From Leeuwenhoekiella nanhaiensis (GTDB lineage: Bacteria; Bacteroidota; Bacteroidia; Flavobacteriales; Flavobacteriaceae), in the NCBI RefSeq assembly GCF_002744755.1, contig NZ_KZ319287.1, positions 682,001 to 746,000 of the forward strand: a stretch of 64,000 bases of DNA, read 5' to 3'. The notes under the pieces were generated by a model that was not told the DNA's origin, ran no database searches, and was given only the letters and a program-made list of their open reading frames with translations. Numbering within the stretch: the first letter of the stretch is position 1; each line of letters begins with the position of its first letter. The translations under genes and the position numbers were made by a program. Below, piece by piece: positions 47,981 through 53,790 of this stretch.

Positions 47981-48877
47981 TTAGTTGCTGGTAAGCTCGT
48001 GAAATAATTGCTCAAGCGTTAGGTTTTTTCGCTTAAGCTGCAGGGTTTTTAGTCCGTTGTCGTGGGCGAAATCAAATAGGGCAGGCCGCATATCTTTACT
48101 GGTTTTGAACGTGATCTCATACACAAAACCTTTGGTGTTTTTAATGGACTCCACGTAGGGCAATTTTTGAAGTGCCACCTCTTCCACGCGGTAATCAAAT
48201 TCGACCTCAATAAGCTGGTCTGTGGCTTCAGTGAGTTCCTTAAGATTTCGGTCTGCAACGATTTTGCCTTTGTTGATAATAATTACCCGGTCACACATAG
48301 CCTCAACCTCCTGCATAATATGCGTTGAGAGTAATACGGTTTTGTCTTTGCCAATAGAACGTATAAGCGATCTGATTTCGCGCAGCTGGTTGGGATCAAG
48401 CCCCGTTGTGGGTTCATCAAGAATGAGAACTTCAGGATCGTGCAGTAAAGCAGCGGCAAGGCCAACGCGTTGTTTGTAACCTTTACTCAATTGCTTGATT
48501 TTCTTGGAGATTTCCTGGGTTAGGCCCGTCATTTCGATAACATCGTCAATACGGTGAGTCGGCGCCTTGCTCAGGTTGGCCATAAGCTTCAGGTACTCTC
48601 TTACATACATATCAGGGTATAACGGATTGTTTTCAGCCAGATAGCCCACGTTTTGCTGAACATCCCGAGGGGAGTCTTCCACTGAAAAACGGGTCACAAT
48701 CGCTTTGCCGGAAGTAGGTTTAAGTAAGGTCGTGAGTATTTTCATCAAGGTGCTTTTGCCTGCACCATTGGGTCCCAAAAAACCGGTGATTTCACCTTTT
48801 TTAATTTCAAAGTTGACGCTGTCCAGAGCTTTTTGTGCTCCGTAGTTTTTTGAAATATCCTGAACCTGTATTGACAT
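47981..48877 (-). CDS. gldA: ABC transporter ATP-binding protein GldA (gliding motility)
   Basis: An ABC ATPase of about 298 residues. Walker A is GPNGAGKST, the signature is QLSKGYKQRVGLAAAL, Walker B is VLILDEPTTGLD and the switch region is STHIMQEVEAMCD. The C-terminal domain has FDYRVEEVALQKLPYV-like sequence as in GldA. The frame is open to an ATG at 48910, but the ATG at 48877 (MSIQVQDISKNYGAQKALDS) matches family N-termini. GldA works with GldF and GldG, which are not in the window, in flavobacterial gliding and adhesin export. Assignment to GldA rather than another single ABC ATPase rests on overall similarity. Confidence 0.82.
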   Translation of the reverse strand: MSIQVQDISKNYGAQKALDSVNFEIKKGEITGFLGPNGAGKSTLMKILTTLLKPTSGKAIVTRFSVEDSPRDVQQNVGYLAENNPLYPDMYVREYLKLMANLSKAPTHRIDDVIEMTGLTQEISKKIKQLSKGYKQRVGLAAALLHDPEVLILDEPTTGLDPNQLREIRSLIRSIGKDKTVLLSTHIMQEVEAMCDRVIIINKGKIVADRNLKELTEATDQLIEVEFDYRVEEVALQKLPYVESIKNTKGFVYEITFKTSKDMRPALFDFAHDNGLKTLQLKRKNLTLEQLFHELTSN

Positions 48878-49141
48878 AATATTTTGATACGTAGTGCTAA
48901 AATTACTCAATTAGACAGGAGTCTCTTCTATATTAAAACTTAAAATTAAACCGAACCACTAATGGGAAGCTCTTAAGATGGCTTAAGAGTAATGATATTT
49001 CTAACAAACGGTCATAAATGAAGGGGAGCTTTGTAATTCATTTAATAAAAGCAGGTGTTTTATTGAATATGTGCAAAAGTTGTACATTCTTCTAGCTGTT
49101 CTTAATAATTTAAGTACTTTAGCAGCGTAAAAATCAAGACA

Positions 49142-49213
49142 ATGATCAATTTTGGTTACTTCTTTAATCGCTATTACTTCTTTTTCTTTTGGAAAGAGAC
49201 GGGACCGCTATAG
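49142..49213 (+). CDS. Aromatic amino acid leader peptide (attenuation)
   Basis: A 23-codon open frame, too short for usual gene callers, between gldA and pheA. It begins MINFGYFFNRYYFFFFW and ends KETGPL, then TAG. Eleven of 23 residues are aromatic: seven Phe (including FFFF at codons 13-16), three Tyr and one Trp. It is followed by a terminator and an overlapping antiterminator, and then by the Phe/Tyr biosynthesis operon. This is the arrangement of pheL/trpL-type leaders in proteobacteria. TACTTTAG at 49116-49123 is a possible -7 box. Translation is inferred from composition and context; the start ATG is unambiguous. Confidence 0.85.
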   Translation: MINFGYFFNRYYFFFFWKETGPL

Positions 49214-49273
49214 AGTAACTTATAGTATATAACACACTAAGGTCCCGATTTAATAAATCGGGATTTTTTTTTT
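49200..49273 (+). terminator. Attenuator: competing antiterminator and terminator hairpins
   Basis: Terminator: TCCCGATTTA (49243-49252), one-base centre, TAAATCGGGA (49254-49263), then ten T residues (49264-49273). Antiterminator: CGGGACC (49200-49206), inside leader codons 20-22, is perfectly complementary to GGTCCCG (49241-49247) and would seize the left terminator arm. A ribosome stalled in the FFFF tract leaves 49200-49206 free. One that reaches the TAG covers it and lets the terminator form. Both pairings are read directly from sequence. Confidence 0.87.
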
Positions 49274-49317
49274 GCCGGATTGAAATTGATACGTAACAAA
49301 TAAACAACAACAAAACA

Positions 49318-50142
49318 TTGAAACATACAGTCGCCATACAGGGAATACGAGGTTCTTTTCACCACAAAGTGGCCCAGGACTTTTTTGGCGAAGATGTGGA
49401 AGTTGTGGCTTGCAGCAGTTTTCAGGATGTGGTAAACAATTTGCTGAAAGAAACAGCGACCGATGCAGTTATGGCTATTGAAAATTCAATCGCCGGAAGC
49501 ATCATTCCCAATTACGCATTGATTGACAAGAACAACCTCAATATAGAAGGAGAGCGTTATCTGGAAATCAGTCAGAATCTTATGGCGATGCCCGGGCAAA
49601 AATTGTCAGACCTTAAAGAGGTTTGGTCGCATCCTATGGCTTTGTTGCAGTGTAATGATTTTTTTCAGGGTCATGAGCATATTCGACTGGTGGAACAGGA
49701 TGACACAGCTGCTGCAGCTATGCGTATTGCCGAGTCTAAAACCACAGGCGTAGGAGCTATCGCTAGTAAAACGGCAGCTCAAATTTATGGACTTGAGTTG
49801 CTTGCAGAAGACATTCAAACCATTAAGGCAAACTCTACCCGTTTTTTTGTATTGAATACAAACGGACGCACAGAGGCAGATGTTCCTGATAAAGCTTCGG
49901 TTAAGTTTCTGACCGACCACAAGCGGGGAAGCCTTGCAGCCGTGCTCAATGTAATGAGTGATTGCCGCTTAAACCTGACTAAAATTCAGTCGTTACCGGT
50001 GATTGAAACCCCCTGGAAATATGCCTTTTTTGTAGATGTGACTTTTGAGCATTATGAAGATTTTGAAAAGGCTAAAAAATTATTAGAGATTATGGCGCAG
50101 CAATTTAAGGTGCTGGGTGAATACAAAAACCGAAAATCATGA
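49318..50142 (+). CDS. pheA: Prephenate dehydratase
   Basis: A 274-residue enzyme started by TTG. The dehydratase domain (~1-185) has VAIQGIRGSFHHKVAQDFFG, AIENSIAGSIIPNYALI and NSTRFFVL. The C-terminal ACT domain (~195-270) begins FLTDHKRGSLAAVLNVM. It converts prephenate to phenylpyruvate. Chorismate mutase is not fused here, as it resides in the DAHP synthase of the same operon. The Phe-binding ESRP motif of classical ACT domains reads QSLP, which may weaken allosteric control and leave attenuation to do more. Start and aminotransferase start overlap by four bases (ATGA). Confidence 0.95.
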   Translation: MKHTVAIQGIRGSFHHKVAQDFFGEDVEVVACSSFQDVVNNLLKETATDAVMAIENSIAGSIIPNYALIDKNNLNIEGERYLEISQNLMAMPGQKLSDLKEVWSHPMALLQCNDFFQGHEHIRLVEQDDTAAAAMRIAESKTTGVGAIASKTAAQIYGLELLAEDIQTIKANSTRFFVLNTNGRTEADVPDKASVKFLTDHKRGSLAAVLNVMSDCRLNLTKIQSLPVIETPWKYAFFVDVTFEHYEDFEKAKKLLEIMAQQFKVLGEYKNRKS

Positions 50143-51287
50143 TTATAGAATCGGCAAACCGGTTAAATCAAACTGCAGAATACTACTTTTCGCGTAAGCT
50201 GAAAGAGGTAAGAGCTCTTGCTGCTCAGGGAAAACCCATCATCAATATGGGTATTGGCAGTCCTGATCTGCCGCCACCGCCACACGTGATTGAAGCCTTA
50301 ACAACTTCGCTGGTTGACGGCCCAGCGCATCAGTATCAAAGCTATAAAGGTCTGCCTCAGCTTACCGCTGCCATGGCAGATTTTTACAAGGACCAATACG
50401 GTGTAAATCTGGATGCAGAGACCGAAATTTTACCACTTATGGGTTCCAAAGAAGGGATTATGCACATCAGCATGGCCTTTTTAAATCCCGGCGATGAAGT
50501 GTTGATTCCTAATCCCGGTTATCCCACCTATACTTCGGTAACCCGTCTGGTTGAGGCAGAGCCGGTATATTACAATCTGGATGCCGCGCATAACTGGATG
50601 CCTGACTATGAGTCATTGCAGAAAAAAGACCTAAGCAAAGTAAAACTGATGTGGGTCAACTACCCACATATGCCTACGGGAGCTAAGGCAACACAGGCTG
50701 ATTTTGAAAAATTAGTCGCTTTTGCGAAAGCAAACCAGATTCTTCTGGTGAATGACAATCCGTATAGCTTTATCCTGAATGAGAATCCGCAAAGTATTCT
50801 CGCGGTTGCGGGAGCAAAAGACGTGGCGATAGAGCTTAACTCCTTGAGTAAATCATTCAATATGTCTGGGTGGCGCGTGGGTATGTTGCTGGGCGCTTCA
50901 GCATATATAGACACGGTGCTTACCGTAAAAAGCAATATGGATAGCGGTATGTTTTACGGCATTCAGAAAGGAGCAGCAGCTGTTTTAAAGGAAGGCAAAG
51001 AATGGTTTGACGGTCTTAATGCCGTTTATAAAAACCGAAGAGATTTGATGTGGCAGTTGGCAGACGTTCTGGGTTGCACTTATGATCAGGAAGCAGCCGG
51101 CATGTTTATCTGGGCCAAACTTCCGGAAGGAGCAGGCGATGCCGAAGCCTTTATCGATGATATTTTGATCAACAAAAGTGTTTTCATCACCCCGGGAACC
51201 ATTTTTGGTTCGCAAGGTGCCGGTTACATACGCTTTTCGCTTTGCGTAACCGAAGAAAAAATTAAAGAAGCAATAAGCAGATTTTAA
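50139..51287 (+). CDS. Class I/II aminotransferase (probable aromatic/aspartate aminotransferase)
   Basis: A 382-residue PLP enzyme. Visible motifs are INMGIGSPDLPPPPHVIEAL (~35-54), MGSKEGIMHI, PNPGYPTYTS, VNDNPYSF (Asp/Tyr of the PLP site) and LNSLSKSFNMSGWRVGMLLG, whose SLSKS Lys binds PLP. Placed between pheA and tyrA, it probably makes Phe and Tyr from phenylpyruvate and 4-hydroxyphenylpyruvate, or transaminates prephenate. It may also use other amino acids such as LL-diaminopimelate-type substrates. ATG overlaps the pheA stop; tyrA starts 1 bp after its own stop. Confidence 0.9.
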   Translation: MIIESANRLNQTAEYYFSRKLKEVRALAAQGKPIINMGIGSPDLPPPPHVIEALTTSLVDGPAHQYQSYKGLPQLTAAMADFYKDQYGVNLDAETEILPLMGSKEGIMHISMAFLNPGDEVLIPNPGYPTYTSVTRLVEAEPVYYNLDAAHNWMPDYESLQKKDLSKVKLMWVNYPHMPTGAKATQADFEKLVAFAKANQILLVNDNPYSFILNENPQSILAVAGAKDVAIELNSLSKSFNMSGWRVGMLLGASAYIDTVLTVKSNMDSGMFYGIQKGAAAVLKEGKEWFDGLNAVYKNRRDLMWQLADVLGCTYDQEAAGMFIWAKLPEGAGDAEAFIDDILINKSVFITPGTIFGSQGAGYIRFSLCVTEEKIKEAISRF

Positions 51288-51288
51288 C

Positions 51289-52149
51289 GTGAATAATTTT
51301 AAAAACATACACGTTCTGGGTTTGGGACTTATAGGAGGTTCCTTATCGCGAGACCTCAAACGCATTTTGCCGGAAGCGGTCATTTATGGGGTGGATAATA
51401 ATGAAGATCATCTGGATGAAGCTGTAGGCCTGGGCGTTGTAGATCATTCCTCCCGTTTTGAAGCCATCAATCAGGCAGATCTGGTTATTCTGGCTATTCC
51501 GGTCGATCAGGCTAATTTGTTTTTGCCACCCATTCTTGATGCCTTAAAAGAAGATGCGCTGGTTATTGATGTGGGTTCCACAAAAGGCAGTGTTTGTGAT
51601 GCGGTAAAAGAGCATCCACGGCGGGAGCAGTTTTTGGCAGCACACCCCATCGCAGGAACTGAGTTTTCCGGTCCTTCGGCAGCGATTGAAAATCTGTTCA
51701 AAAACAAGACGATGATTCTTTGCGAAGTAGAAAAGACCCGTCAGGACCTTTTAGAACAGGCGATGCAGATTTTTGAAGCTTTGGAGATGAATATTCGGTA
51801 TATGAATCCGCATTCGCATGATAAGCACATTGCTTACGTTTCGCACCTGTCACACATCAGCAGTTTTATGCTGGGGAAGACCGTAATTGAGAAGGAGAAG
51901 AACGAGAAGGATATTTTTGATATGGCGGGCAGTGGTTTTGCTTCAACCGTACGTCTGGCAAAAAGTAATCCTGCTACCTGGACTCCTATTTTTAAAGAAA
52001 ATAAAGCTAACGTACTCGAGAGCTTAACAGAATACATAACTAATTTAACGCATTTCAAAAACGTGCTTGAGGCTGATGACTACGAGGAGGTTTTTAACGA
52101 AATGCACAATACAAACCACATAAAATCAATACTTAAAGGATTATCGTAA
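51289..52149 (+). CDS. tyrA: Prephenate dehydrogenase
   Basis: A 286-residue enzyme with a GTG start. The Rossmann motif is VLGLGLIGGSLSRDL (~7-21), then AHPIAGTEFSGPSAA (~118-132, catalytic-His region), and a helical C-terminal domain with HIAYVSHLSHISSFML and DMAGSGFASTVRLAKSNP. It oxidatively decarboxylates prephenate to 4-hydroxyphenylpyruvate using NAD+. No ACT or chorismate mutase domain is attached. The gene starts 1 bp after the aminotransferase stop and is followed at 28 bp by the bifunctional DAHP synthase-chorismate mutase. Confidence 0.95.
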   Translation: MNNFKNIHVLGLGLIGGSLSRDLKRILPEAVIYGVDNNEDHLDEAVGLGVVDHSSRFEAINQADLVILAIPVDQANLFLPPILDALKEDALVIDVGSTKGSVCDAVKEHPRREQFLAAHPIAGTEFSGPSAAIENLFKNKTMILCEVEKTRQDLLEQAMQIFEALEMNIRYMNPHSHDKHIAYVSHLSHISSFMLGKTVIEKEKNEKDIFDMAGSGFASTVRLAKSNPATWTPIFKENKANVLESLTEYITNLTHFKNVLEADDYEEVFNEMHNTNHIKSILKGLS

Positions 52150-52177
52150 TCGGCTTAAAGCTGTAAATTTGTTGAAT

Positions 52178-53269
52178 ATGGAAAATAAGAAAGAACTTAG
52201 AAACTGGTTAGACGCCTTCAATCTGGACCACCCGCTTGTAATAGCCGGTCCATGCAGTGCAGAAACCGAAGAGCAGGTGCTTAAAATTGCACACGAACTT
52301 AAAGATACCGATGCAACTGTTTTTAGAGCAGGTATCTGGAAACCCCGTACCCGTCCTGGAATGTTTGAAGGAGTAGGTGCTTTAGGTCTGAAGTGGATGC
52401 AGAAAGCTAAAGAAGAAACCGGAATGCTTACCACAACTGAGGTGGCAAACCCAAATCACGTGGAGCTGGCGCTTAAACACGACATAGATATTTTATGGAT
52501 TGGGGCACGTACTACGGTTTCTCCGTTCAATATTCAGGAAATTGCAGAAGCTTTGAAAGGAACAGATAAGGTTGTACTTATCAAAAACCCGGTAAACCCT
52601 GATTTAGCCTTATGGTTAGGTGCTGTGGAGCGTTTCTACACGCAAGACGTTAAGAATCTTGGTGTGATTCATAGAGGTTTTTCTACTTATGAAAAAACCA
52701 AATACCGTAACAACCCCGAGTGGCAACTGGCGGTAGATCTTCAGAATAAATTCCCTGATCTGCCTTTGATCTTAGATCCTTCGCATATTGCGGGGCGTCG
52801 TGACATCATTTTTGATTTGTGCCAAACCGGTCTTGATTTGAATTATGACGGTATTATGGTAGAAACCCACTACGATCCCGATAACGCGTGGAGTGATGCC
52901 AAGCAGCAAATTACCCCTTCTACTTTGGTACAGATTATGAAAGATCTGAAAATCCGTAAAGAGGAAGGTACTGCGGCAGAGTTTAATAACAAGCTAAACA
53001 CCTTGCGTACGCAAATTGATGTGGTTGACCATCAGTTAATCGAAAGCCTTGGTAAACGTATGAAAATCGCCGATGCGATTGGAGAGCTAAAAACTCAGAA
53101 TAACGTGGCTATTCTTCAGTCTAAACGCTGGAATGAAATTCTTGGAGCTATGATTCTAGAAGGAGAGCAGCACAATTTGAGTGAGGAATTTATCTTACGC
53201 GTGTTTAAAGCGATTCACCAGGAATCTATTAACCACCAGAAAAAAATCTCCAGAATGGAGGAAGCTTAA
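52178..53269 (+). CDS. Bifunctional DAHP synthase / chorismate mutase
   Basis: A protein of about 363 residues (ATG 52178; a TTG at 52169 is possible but weaker). Residues ~1-255 are a KDO8P-synthase-like type I DAHP synthase: PLVIAGPCSAETEEQVLKIA, FRAGIWKPRTRPGMFEGVG, VVLIKNPVNPDLALWLGA and DPSHIAGRRD. The C-terminal ~95 residues are an AroQ-type chorismate mutase (LNTLRTQIDVVDHQLIESLG, RMKIADAIGELK). It performs the first step of the shikimate pathway and the branch step to prephenate. It closes the attenuated operon and is followed by a strong terminator. Fusion of these two activities is common in Bacteroidota. Confidence 0.95.
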   Translation: MENKKELRNWLDAFNLDHPLVIAGPCSAETEEQVLKIAHELKDTDATVFRAGIWKPRTRPGMFEGVGALGLKWMQKAKEETGMLTTTEVANPNHVELALKHDIDILWIGARTTVSPFNIQEIAEALKGTDKVVLIKNPVNPDLALWLGAVERFYTQDVKNLGVIHRGFSTYEKTKYRNNPEWQLAVDLQNKFPDLPLILDPSHIAGRRDIIFDLCQTGLDLNYDGIMVETHYDPDNAWSDAKQQITPSTLVQIMKDLKIRKEEGTAAEFNNKLNTLRTQIDVVDHQLIESLGKRMKIADAIGELKTQNNVAILQSKRWNEILGAMILEGEQHNLSEEFILRVFKAIHQESINHQKKISRMEEA

Positions 53270-53290
53270 GTTATTGAGCTAAAAACAAAA

Positions 53291-53330
53291 AAATAGGCTA
53301 CCGGGAAACGGCAGCCTATTTTTTTTTACT
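53291..53330. terminator. Bidirectional terminator of the aromatic operon
   Basis: AATAGGCT...AGCCTATT arms with an inner CCG/CGG pair and GGAAA loop, flanked by A and T runs on either side. It also serves the convergent gene at 53326-53790, whose last codons lie at its edge. Confidence 0.85.
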
Positions 53331-53790
53331 CTTGCACCTGTTTAACCCGTTTGAAAATATAGCGGGTGACATAGATGCCGTTTTCGTCTCCGTCACCTCC
53401 ATAGCTTTCAACGCCACTATTTACAAAAGCGAGTTCCCAGCCTTCTTCGGCCATCGCGTTAATTTTAGAGGTAACTACAGCATCATTTGCTGCAATGTTT
53501 TGGAAGCGAATTCCGCCTATATTAAAGAAATTCAAAAGTTTAGTCTCTTCAAAATTCTTAAGACGAATCTCGCTTCGGTCTGATTTGTTTCTGCTATCGT
53601 CTTCTTCAGAGCGTTCTGAGGTAAATTCTTTGTAATCCCGGCTTTCGAGGGTTGAGATCATTCGAGATCTTCCCAAACCATTGGGAATAATAGATTCAAT
53701 AACGGTTACAGTTTGATATTCAAAAACCTGTGCGAAAAGGCTCAGATTAAAGCTCATAAACAGTAGGAATAAAAACGTAGATTTTTTCAT
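53326..53790 (-). CDS. Small exported protein, DUF4177-like
   Basis: A 154-residue protein with a signal peptide (MKKSTFLFLLFMSFNLSLFA, cleaved near AQ). The body is charged, and the segment MAEEGWELAFVNSGVESYGG followed by a strand YVTRYIFKRV resembles the EGWEL pattern of DUF4177-type domains. I do not recognise a specific function. It is a single gene that converges on the aromatic operon and is separated from rsgA by 79 bp. Confidence 0.75.
   Translation of the reverse strand: MKKSTFLFLLFMSFNLSLFAQVFEYQTVTVIESIIPNGLGRSRMISTLESRDYKEFTSERSEEDDSRNKSDRSEIRLKNFEETKLLNFFNIGGIRFQNIAANDAVVTSKINAMAEEGWELAFVNSGVESYGGDGDENGIYVTRYIFKRVKQVQE

Follow-up and report, generated by a model that had tools for sequence, protein, structure and literature searches.

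The pheA operon of this Leeuwenhoekiella genome is preceded by an aromatic-rich leader frame, an intrinsic terminator and an alternative pairing that competes with it, and on sequence grounds we consider it very probable that together they form a ribosome-mediated transcription attenuator of the classic type, with charged tRNA-Phe as its main signal and charged tRNA-Tyr as a second one. Conservation, covariation and a constant geometry strongly support the pheL/trpL-type attenuator logic proposed in a first-pass annotation, and a corresponding response would be expected in vivo. In the window, by which we mean the whole stretch of DNA analyzed (64,000 nucleotides, 64 kb), the elements lie on the plus strand in the order aromatic leader, terminator, pheA, aminotransferase, tyrA and DAHP synthase-chorismate mutase, and the gene names first given to this operon agree with the domain matches. 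The features are as follows:

47981-48877, minus strand: gldA (TIGR03522), the divergent upstream neighbor of the leader region
49114-49121, plus strand: promoter -7-like box TACTTTAG, of the Bacteroidetes type TAnnTTTG
49142-49213, plus strand: leader peptide ORF MINFGYFFNRYYFFFFWKETGPL, with the stop codon TAG at 49211-49213; homologous leaders lie upstream of pheA in relatives
49178-49189, plus strand: putative control codons 13-16 (four Phe codons), from the position rule in 118 loci
49200-49206, plus strand: antiterminator 5' strand CGGGACC (region 2), in codons 20-22, from complementarity and covariation
49207-49226, plus strand: predicted inner helix stacked on the antiterminator (49207-49213 with 49220-49226)
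49239-49267, plus strand: intrinsic terminator stem-loop, left arm 49239-49251 and right arm 49255-49267, from predicted fold and covariation
49264-49273, plus strand: ten-T tract of the terminator, from the sequence
49318-50142, plus strand: pheA, prephenate dehydratase, with a TTG start (PF00800, E 1.5e-55)
50139-51287, plus strand: class I/II aminotransferase (PF00155)
51289-52149, plus strand: tyrA, prephenate dehydrogenase (NF006307, above the cut-off)
52169-53269, plus strand: DAHP synthase-chorismate mutase fusion (PF00793 and PF01817)

The leader had been described as a frame of 23 codons with 11 aromatic residues, FFFF at codons 13-16 and a Trp codon next to this tract, all of which is correct in MINFGYFFNRYYFFFFWKETGPL, where the Trp is codon 17. 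This short ORF, rich in codons for the products of the operon, is kept in relatives and is presumably translated. On both strands of the window, seven ATG frames of 8-45 codons hold at least five aromatic residues at a proportion of at least 25%. A terminator-like hairpin follows two of the seven, and a chance frame is ruled out, as the leader at 49142 is the richer of these two (11 aromatic residues vs. 6 in the other). The intrinsic terminator lies between the leader and the first gene. Its stem, earlier called a perfect 10-bp terminator followed by ten T residues, has 13 pairs, two of them G-U, two A-U and nine contiguous Watson-Crick pairs, around a 3-nt loop; the description of the T tract stands, and the stem is slightly longer than described. 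The proposed 7-nt pairing of 49200-49206 (CGGGACC) with 49241-49247 (GGTCCCG) is exact, and its first strand does lie inside leader codons 20-22. This strand is the best antiterminator found for the source locus, and 49241-49247 is common to the left arm of the terminator and to the antiterminator. A strong terminator-like hairpin of 17 pairs was also called on the minus strand at 53287-53325, in the gap that separates the DAHP synthase gene from the convergent gene at 53326-53790.

We infer that transcription begins just upstream of the leader and that a ribosome translates it, with the coupling of transcription and translation as the deciding factor in the amino-acid response. When Phe or Tyr is short, the ribosome would stall on the aromatic run at codons 11-16, with its front edge just short of 49200, and CGGGACC would be free to pair with GGTCCCG as this emerges. 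The antiterminator pairing would keep the terminator from forming in time, and the pheA-aminotransferase-tyrA-DAHP synthase operon would be transcribed. When aromatic amino acids are sufficient, the ribosome would run to the stop codon at 49211 and cover 49200-49206, and the terminator would form. When folds are predicted for RNA that stops in the terminator loop, with the ribosome at codon 16, the antiterminator has a probability of about 1, supported by the inner helix, and with the ribosome at the stop codon the terminator alone can form. In the complete RNA at equilibrium, the terminator is predicted to prevail over the antiterminator even with a stalled ribosome, so that the switch would have to be kinetic. 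The predicted probability of the antiterminator in the stalled state is above 0.5 in 101 of the 102 distinct leaders.

The antiterminator strand varies with the left arm of the terminator. A total of 151 loci, in which the source locus recurs as L123 with an identical stretch that was dropped, gave 118 distinct ones on removal of 14 identical leader-terminator stretches, one locus without an arm core (L145) and 18 that failed the criteria for leader and terminator (L051, L075 and L088 because of a long loop; the other 15 belong to other families). Between the antiterminator 7-mer and the core of the 5' arm for which it competes, 750 of 826 cells were paired in the 118 loci (90.8%), compared with 79.2% when strands were exchanged between loci with different cores; the position of the antiterminator was picked by best complementarity, which favors pairing, and the controls used the same choice. 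The median antiterminator score was 14, against 10 with the arm of another locus and 8 in shuffled leaders. The two strands have changed jointly, the core and its partner being GGTCCCG/CGGGACC, AGTCTCG/CGAGAC, AATCCTG/AGGATT, AGTTCTG/CAGAACT or AGCCTCG/CGAGGTT.

An alignment, A2, was confined to a single leader type and took in 33 of its 34 loci (all except L087); the 84 loci of other types lie outside it. Here, 96.1% of the 231 antiterminator cells were paired, as opposed to 16-59% when the strand was slid by 1 to 3 columns, and the 13 cells with double changes (shuffle mean 5.1) were reached by none of 500 shuffles. Two of the five covariation measures on A2 were unexceptional against the shuffles: 65 of 500 shuffles had at least as many antiterminator pairs with double changes (two), and 82 of 500 had at least as many pair types. 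The 7-pair core of the terminator was paired in all 231 cells; its 11 double-change cells were reached by none of 500 shuffles, and its double-change pairs and pair types, reached by 102 and 299 of 500, respectively, were not exceptional. On the supported branches of a PheA tree, for which 33 of 151 rows lack the later part of PheA, about 8 of 15 pairs change with the terminator and about 0.2 against it, the rest showing no difference. No single position covaried significantly on this tree, which holds few independent changes and is under-powered; the changes are consistent with covariation.

A second regularity is the distance between the control codons and the antiterminator. The last clustered aromatic codon starts a median of 13 nt before the antiterminator does (sd 1.9, n = 118), and the distance from antiterminator to stop codon wanders in the same loci (sd 7.8). 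The sd of the distance from the last aromatic codon was 16.0 in shuffled leaders and 8.5 with arms borrowed from other loci. Among the divergent loci described below, two of 35 had no core (L186 and L196), and the 33 measured gave a median spacing of 14 nt (sd 2.2), with 29 of them within 9-16 nt. An aromatic codon is found 12-14 nt before the antiterminator in 95 of 101 leaders, at 9-11 nt in 16 of 100 and at the next codon in 1 of 97; at the source locus, codon 16 begins 13 nt ahead of the antiterminator strand. The stop codon may fall before, within or well after the antiterminator, and the spacing is undisturbed, which argues that it is stalling, and not the position of the stop, that the sequence preserves. 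The front edge of a ribosome lies about 12-13 nt beyond its A site, so that one stalled on the last Phe codon would just spare the antiterminator; with that reach, the control codons are placed to leave the antiterminator free under a stalled ribosome. The near-constant spacing and the wandering stop codon together fit a stalled ribosome that frees the antiterminator and a ribosome at the stop codon that hides it. Such a codon-to-antiterminator ruler would permit automatic annotation of leaders of this kind.

A comparison of pheA upstream regions across the Flavobacteriaceae, suggested beforehand as a check, did reveal conserved aromatic-rich short frames and covarying hairpins. An aromatic leader and a terminator precede pheA in all 13 Leeuwenhoekiella genomes searched and, under strict criteria, in 123 of 126 mostly close Flavobacteriaceae-type loci (L001-L126); these comprise the 30 best family matches, 11 more genomes of the genus, 80 named best-match loci and 5 same-family loci from the class search, and some genomes occur twice among them. 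The remaining three (L051, L075 and L088) have the leader and a stem with a T tract, with a loop beyond the limit set. Since this set favors near relatives, the 40 weakest listed family matches were added, the sampling thus covering the best 30 and the weakest 40 listed of the 178 family genomes with a match. Both leader and terminator were present in 35 of these 40 most divergent loci listed, the leader only in three, and neither in two, one of which (L169) has fewer than 400 bases upstream before the contig ends. The aminotransferase is directly downstream of pheA in 79 of the 80 named loci.

In other families of the Bacteroidia, leader and terminator were found at 9 of 24 loci (from the best 30 of 53 class genomes matched), and six of the nine precede the gene order pheA-DAHP synthase. 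Three of the other 15 have a frame and no qualifying terminator, and 12 have no aromatic-rich frame; in 10 of these 12, the aminotransferase adjoins pheA. Operons with no leader, named at the outset as what would speak against the proposal, thus occur mainly outside the family (these 10 loci), and within it 2 of the 40 divergent loci show no leader, one of them being the truncated L169. Nearly every locus sampled in the family thus carries the leader, which outside the family has a patchy distribution. Two of the 12 loci, L131 and L133, carry a terminator-like hairpin. In L131 the terminator is strong and lies 33 nt before the pheA anchor, with no aromatic-rich ATG frame; it may belong to another regulator or to a leader that was missed.

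Which amino acids the leader would sense can be read from its codons. Phe and Tyr occur in all 102 distinct leaders (means of 5.65 and 3.26), and of 101 leaders, 86 have Phe, 6 have Tyr and 3 have Trp as the codon 12-14 nt upstream of the antiterminator. It had been proposed that the Trp codon beside the Phe tract points to sensing of more than these two, and a leader that also senses Trp through this codon, as a three-amino-acid sensor, is the least unlikely of the alternatives, though we regard it as improbable. Trp17 does directly follow FFFF at the source locus, 57 of the 102 distinct leaders hold a Trp codon somewhere, and the DAHP synthase of the operon also supplies Trp synthesis. However, residue 17 is W, L, I, G or T across the 13 Leeuwenhoekiella genomes, and Trp17 lies only 10 nt before the antiterminator strand, past the aromatic zone and where aromatic codons fall to 16 of 100. 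Moreover, 45 of the 102 leaders have no Trp whereas none is without Phe or Tyr, Trp is rarely the critical codon (3 of 101, as above), and the same genome has a separate leader with WWW before a trpE-like gene. The suggestion of Trp sensing is therefore unsupported. In the predicted folds of L039 and L041, the partner strand of the antiterminator region includes the upstream Trp codon of a YFWN motif, and retention of this codon may reflect an RNA constraint.

A structured leader followed by a terminator, here with an RNA fold z of -2.5 relative to shuffles, would look alike if it were a tRNA- or metabolite-binding 5' element, a T-box or riboswitch, in which the frame is incidental. We find this very hard to credit: at the gathering score, Rfam finds only tRNA in the whole window and no family in the leader region, and of the 18 matches to 49050-49350 obtained when E was allowed up to 10, none attains its gathering score and none is a T-box or riboswitch, on which basis that identity was rejected. 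Conservation falls instead on the aromatic frame and on the spacing between it and the antiterminator, and synonymous Phe codons are used side by side (434 TTT and 235 TTC in the 118 leaders). Equally implausible is a terminator that merely ends upstream transcription, with the leader peptide a small protein with its own function, in the way that the leader peptide peTrpL of Sinorhizobium acts in trans (PMC7298713, in the part available), as gldA is divergent, and there is therefore no transcript of an upstream gene to end, and the RNA pairing persists across clades in which the tail of the peptide varies (GPL, ALYV, AMVI or an early stop). The ribosome-mediated attenuator is the reading that we retain.

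The pheL-pheA attenuator of Escherichia coli has a Phe-rich leader and overlapping antiterminator and terminator, and controls the gene for prephenate dehydratase. The element described here is alike in all these respects. It differs in that Phe and Tyr codons are mixed, in that the operon also makes Tyr and DAHP, in that the last leader codons contain the antiterminator strand and in that just 1 of the 118 loci has a Shine-Dalgarno-like motif ahead of the leader. The Trp_leader family (RF00513) follows the same logic; however, the present leader aligns to it with 18.1 bits, against a gathering score of 41 bits, and has no tandem Trp codons, and by score it is no member.

The first-pass annotation knew of no such attenuator described for this operon in flavobacteria; novelty in this group does not hold: a structured 5' element upstream of pheA was named in 2021 in the fish bacterium Flavobacterium psychrophilum, the pheA and hisG 5' elements are conserved in other genera of the Flavobacteriaceae with no Rfam hits, and F. 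psychrophilum was reported to show strong clues that amino-acid operons are preceded by leader-peptide attenuators (PMC9723704, in the part available). The present element is like that one in gene and family, in its conservation across genera and in having no Rfam hit; unlike here, the account of the F. psychrophilum pheA element gives no leader peptide, antiterminator or spacing in the part available (PMC9723704). Leader-like short ORFs are mentioned in Bacteroides in the part available of PMC7366714, and in the available part of PMC2864571, which does not show the present element, a pheA motif is given for Actinobacteria and Flavo-1 for Bacteroidetes. A detailed account of the pheA leader was not found in the literature searched, in the parts available, and Lopatovskaya et al., 2010 (cited in PMC4833913) may list the operon. 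The mechanism is classic and the element is already in print; what is added here is its anatomy and range. This gives a detailed, testable anatomy for an element that is merely named in the flavobacterial literature in the parts seen.

The box at 49114-49121 resembles TAnnTTTG, the Bacteroidetes -7 consensus, and transcription would be expected to start a few bases downstream of it, around 49127-49130. In 86 of the 118 loci, a TAnnTT[AT]G motif occurs between 8 and 70 nt ahead of the leader ATG, compared with 9.2% of shuffles. The strict pattern TTG-N17-23-TAnnTTTG fits 84 of the 118; at the source locus this pattern does not fit and the looser -7 motif does, with no -33 TTG recognizable there. 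A scan for sigma-70 -35/-10 boxes is uninformative for Bacteroidetes promoters. Around the start of the leader, A is found at -3 in 75% and at -6 in 68% of the 118 loci. Bacteroidetes are known for weak use of Shine-Dalgarno sequences, and the promoter, the Shine-Dalgarno count and the A-rich pattern at the leader agree with the general picture of initiation in these bacteria.

In untranslated RNA at equilibrium, the predicted probability of the antiterminator is above 0.5 in 73 of the 102 leaders, including the source locus, and at or below 0.5 in 29, and the outcome in the absence of translation may differ between clades. A protector (1:2) helix, in which early codons pair with the antiterminator region, beats 95% of codon shuffles in 80 of the 102 leaders. 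At the source locus it is not above the controls (z of -0.44 relative to codon shuffles), and in the near relatives L032, L033, L002 and L036 it is likewise not above codon-shuffled controls. RNAalifold found no consensus protector on the 33 loci of A2, where the terminator alone appears, and a simple measure of protector pairing was barely above that in shuffled flanks (0.69 vs. 0.61), the codon-shuffle tests being clearer. Tentatively, these patterns could point to a Bacteroidota-wide dual Phe/Tyr attenuator with no Shine-Dalgarno sequence and a fixed ruler of 12-14 nt, in which the protector has decayed in part of Leeuwenhoekiella; on that same tentative reading, an untranslated leader there would read through instead of terminating.

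Three other leaders were seen in the same genome. A His-rich leader, MKAISLHHHHFYLRAQAR, with a terminator lies upstream of hisG (L152:1193-1249, plus strand, contig C2). A Trp leader, MKNRIANTWWWISQL (WWW), with a terminator precedes the trpE-like gene, one of three PF00425 genes in the genome (L154:727-774, plus strand, contig C12). A Val/Ile-rich leader, MKKQVVIIRSIRVIRQA, with a terminator precedes ilvD (L157:2801-2854, minus strand, contig C2). The remaining two PF00425 genes and the three PF00682 genes of this genome showed no comparable leader upstream. The Phe/Tyr, His, Trp and Val/Ile leaders suggest, from their sequences, that ribosome-dependent attenuation is routine for amino-acid operons in this genome. 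Attenuation by translating ribosomes needs close coupling of transcription and translation; if it is indeed routine, such coupling would hold in bacteria with weak Shine-Dalgarno use. The hisG leader MKAISLHHHHFYLRAQAR has a 9-pair alternative strand in its last codons and, by eye, TGTCGTGA, after the stop codon of the trpE-like leader, can pair with the terminator loop and right arm, TCACGACA.
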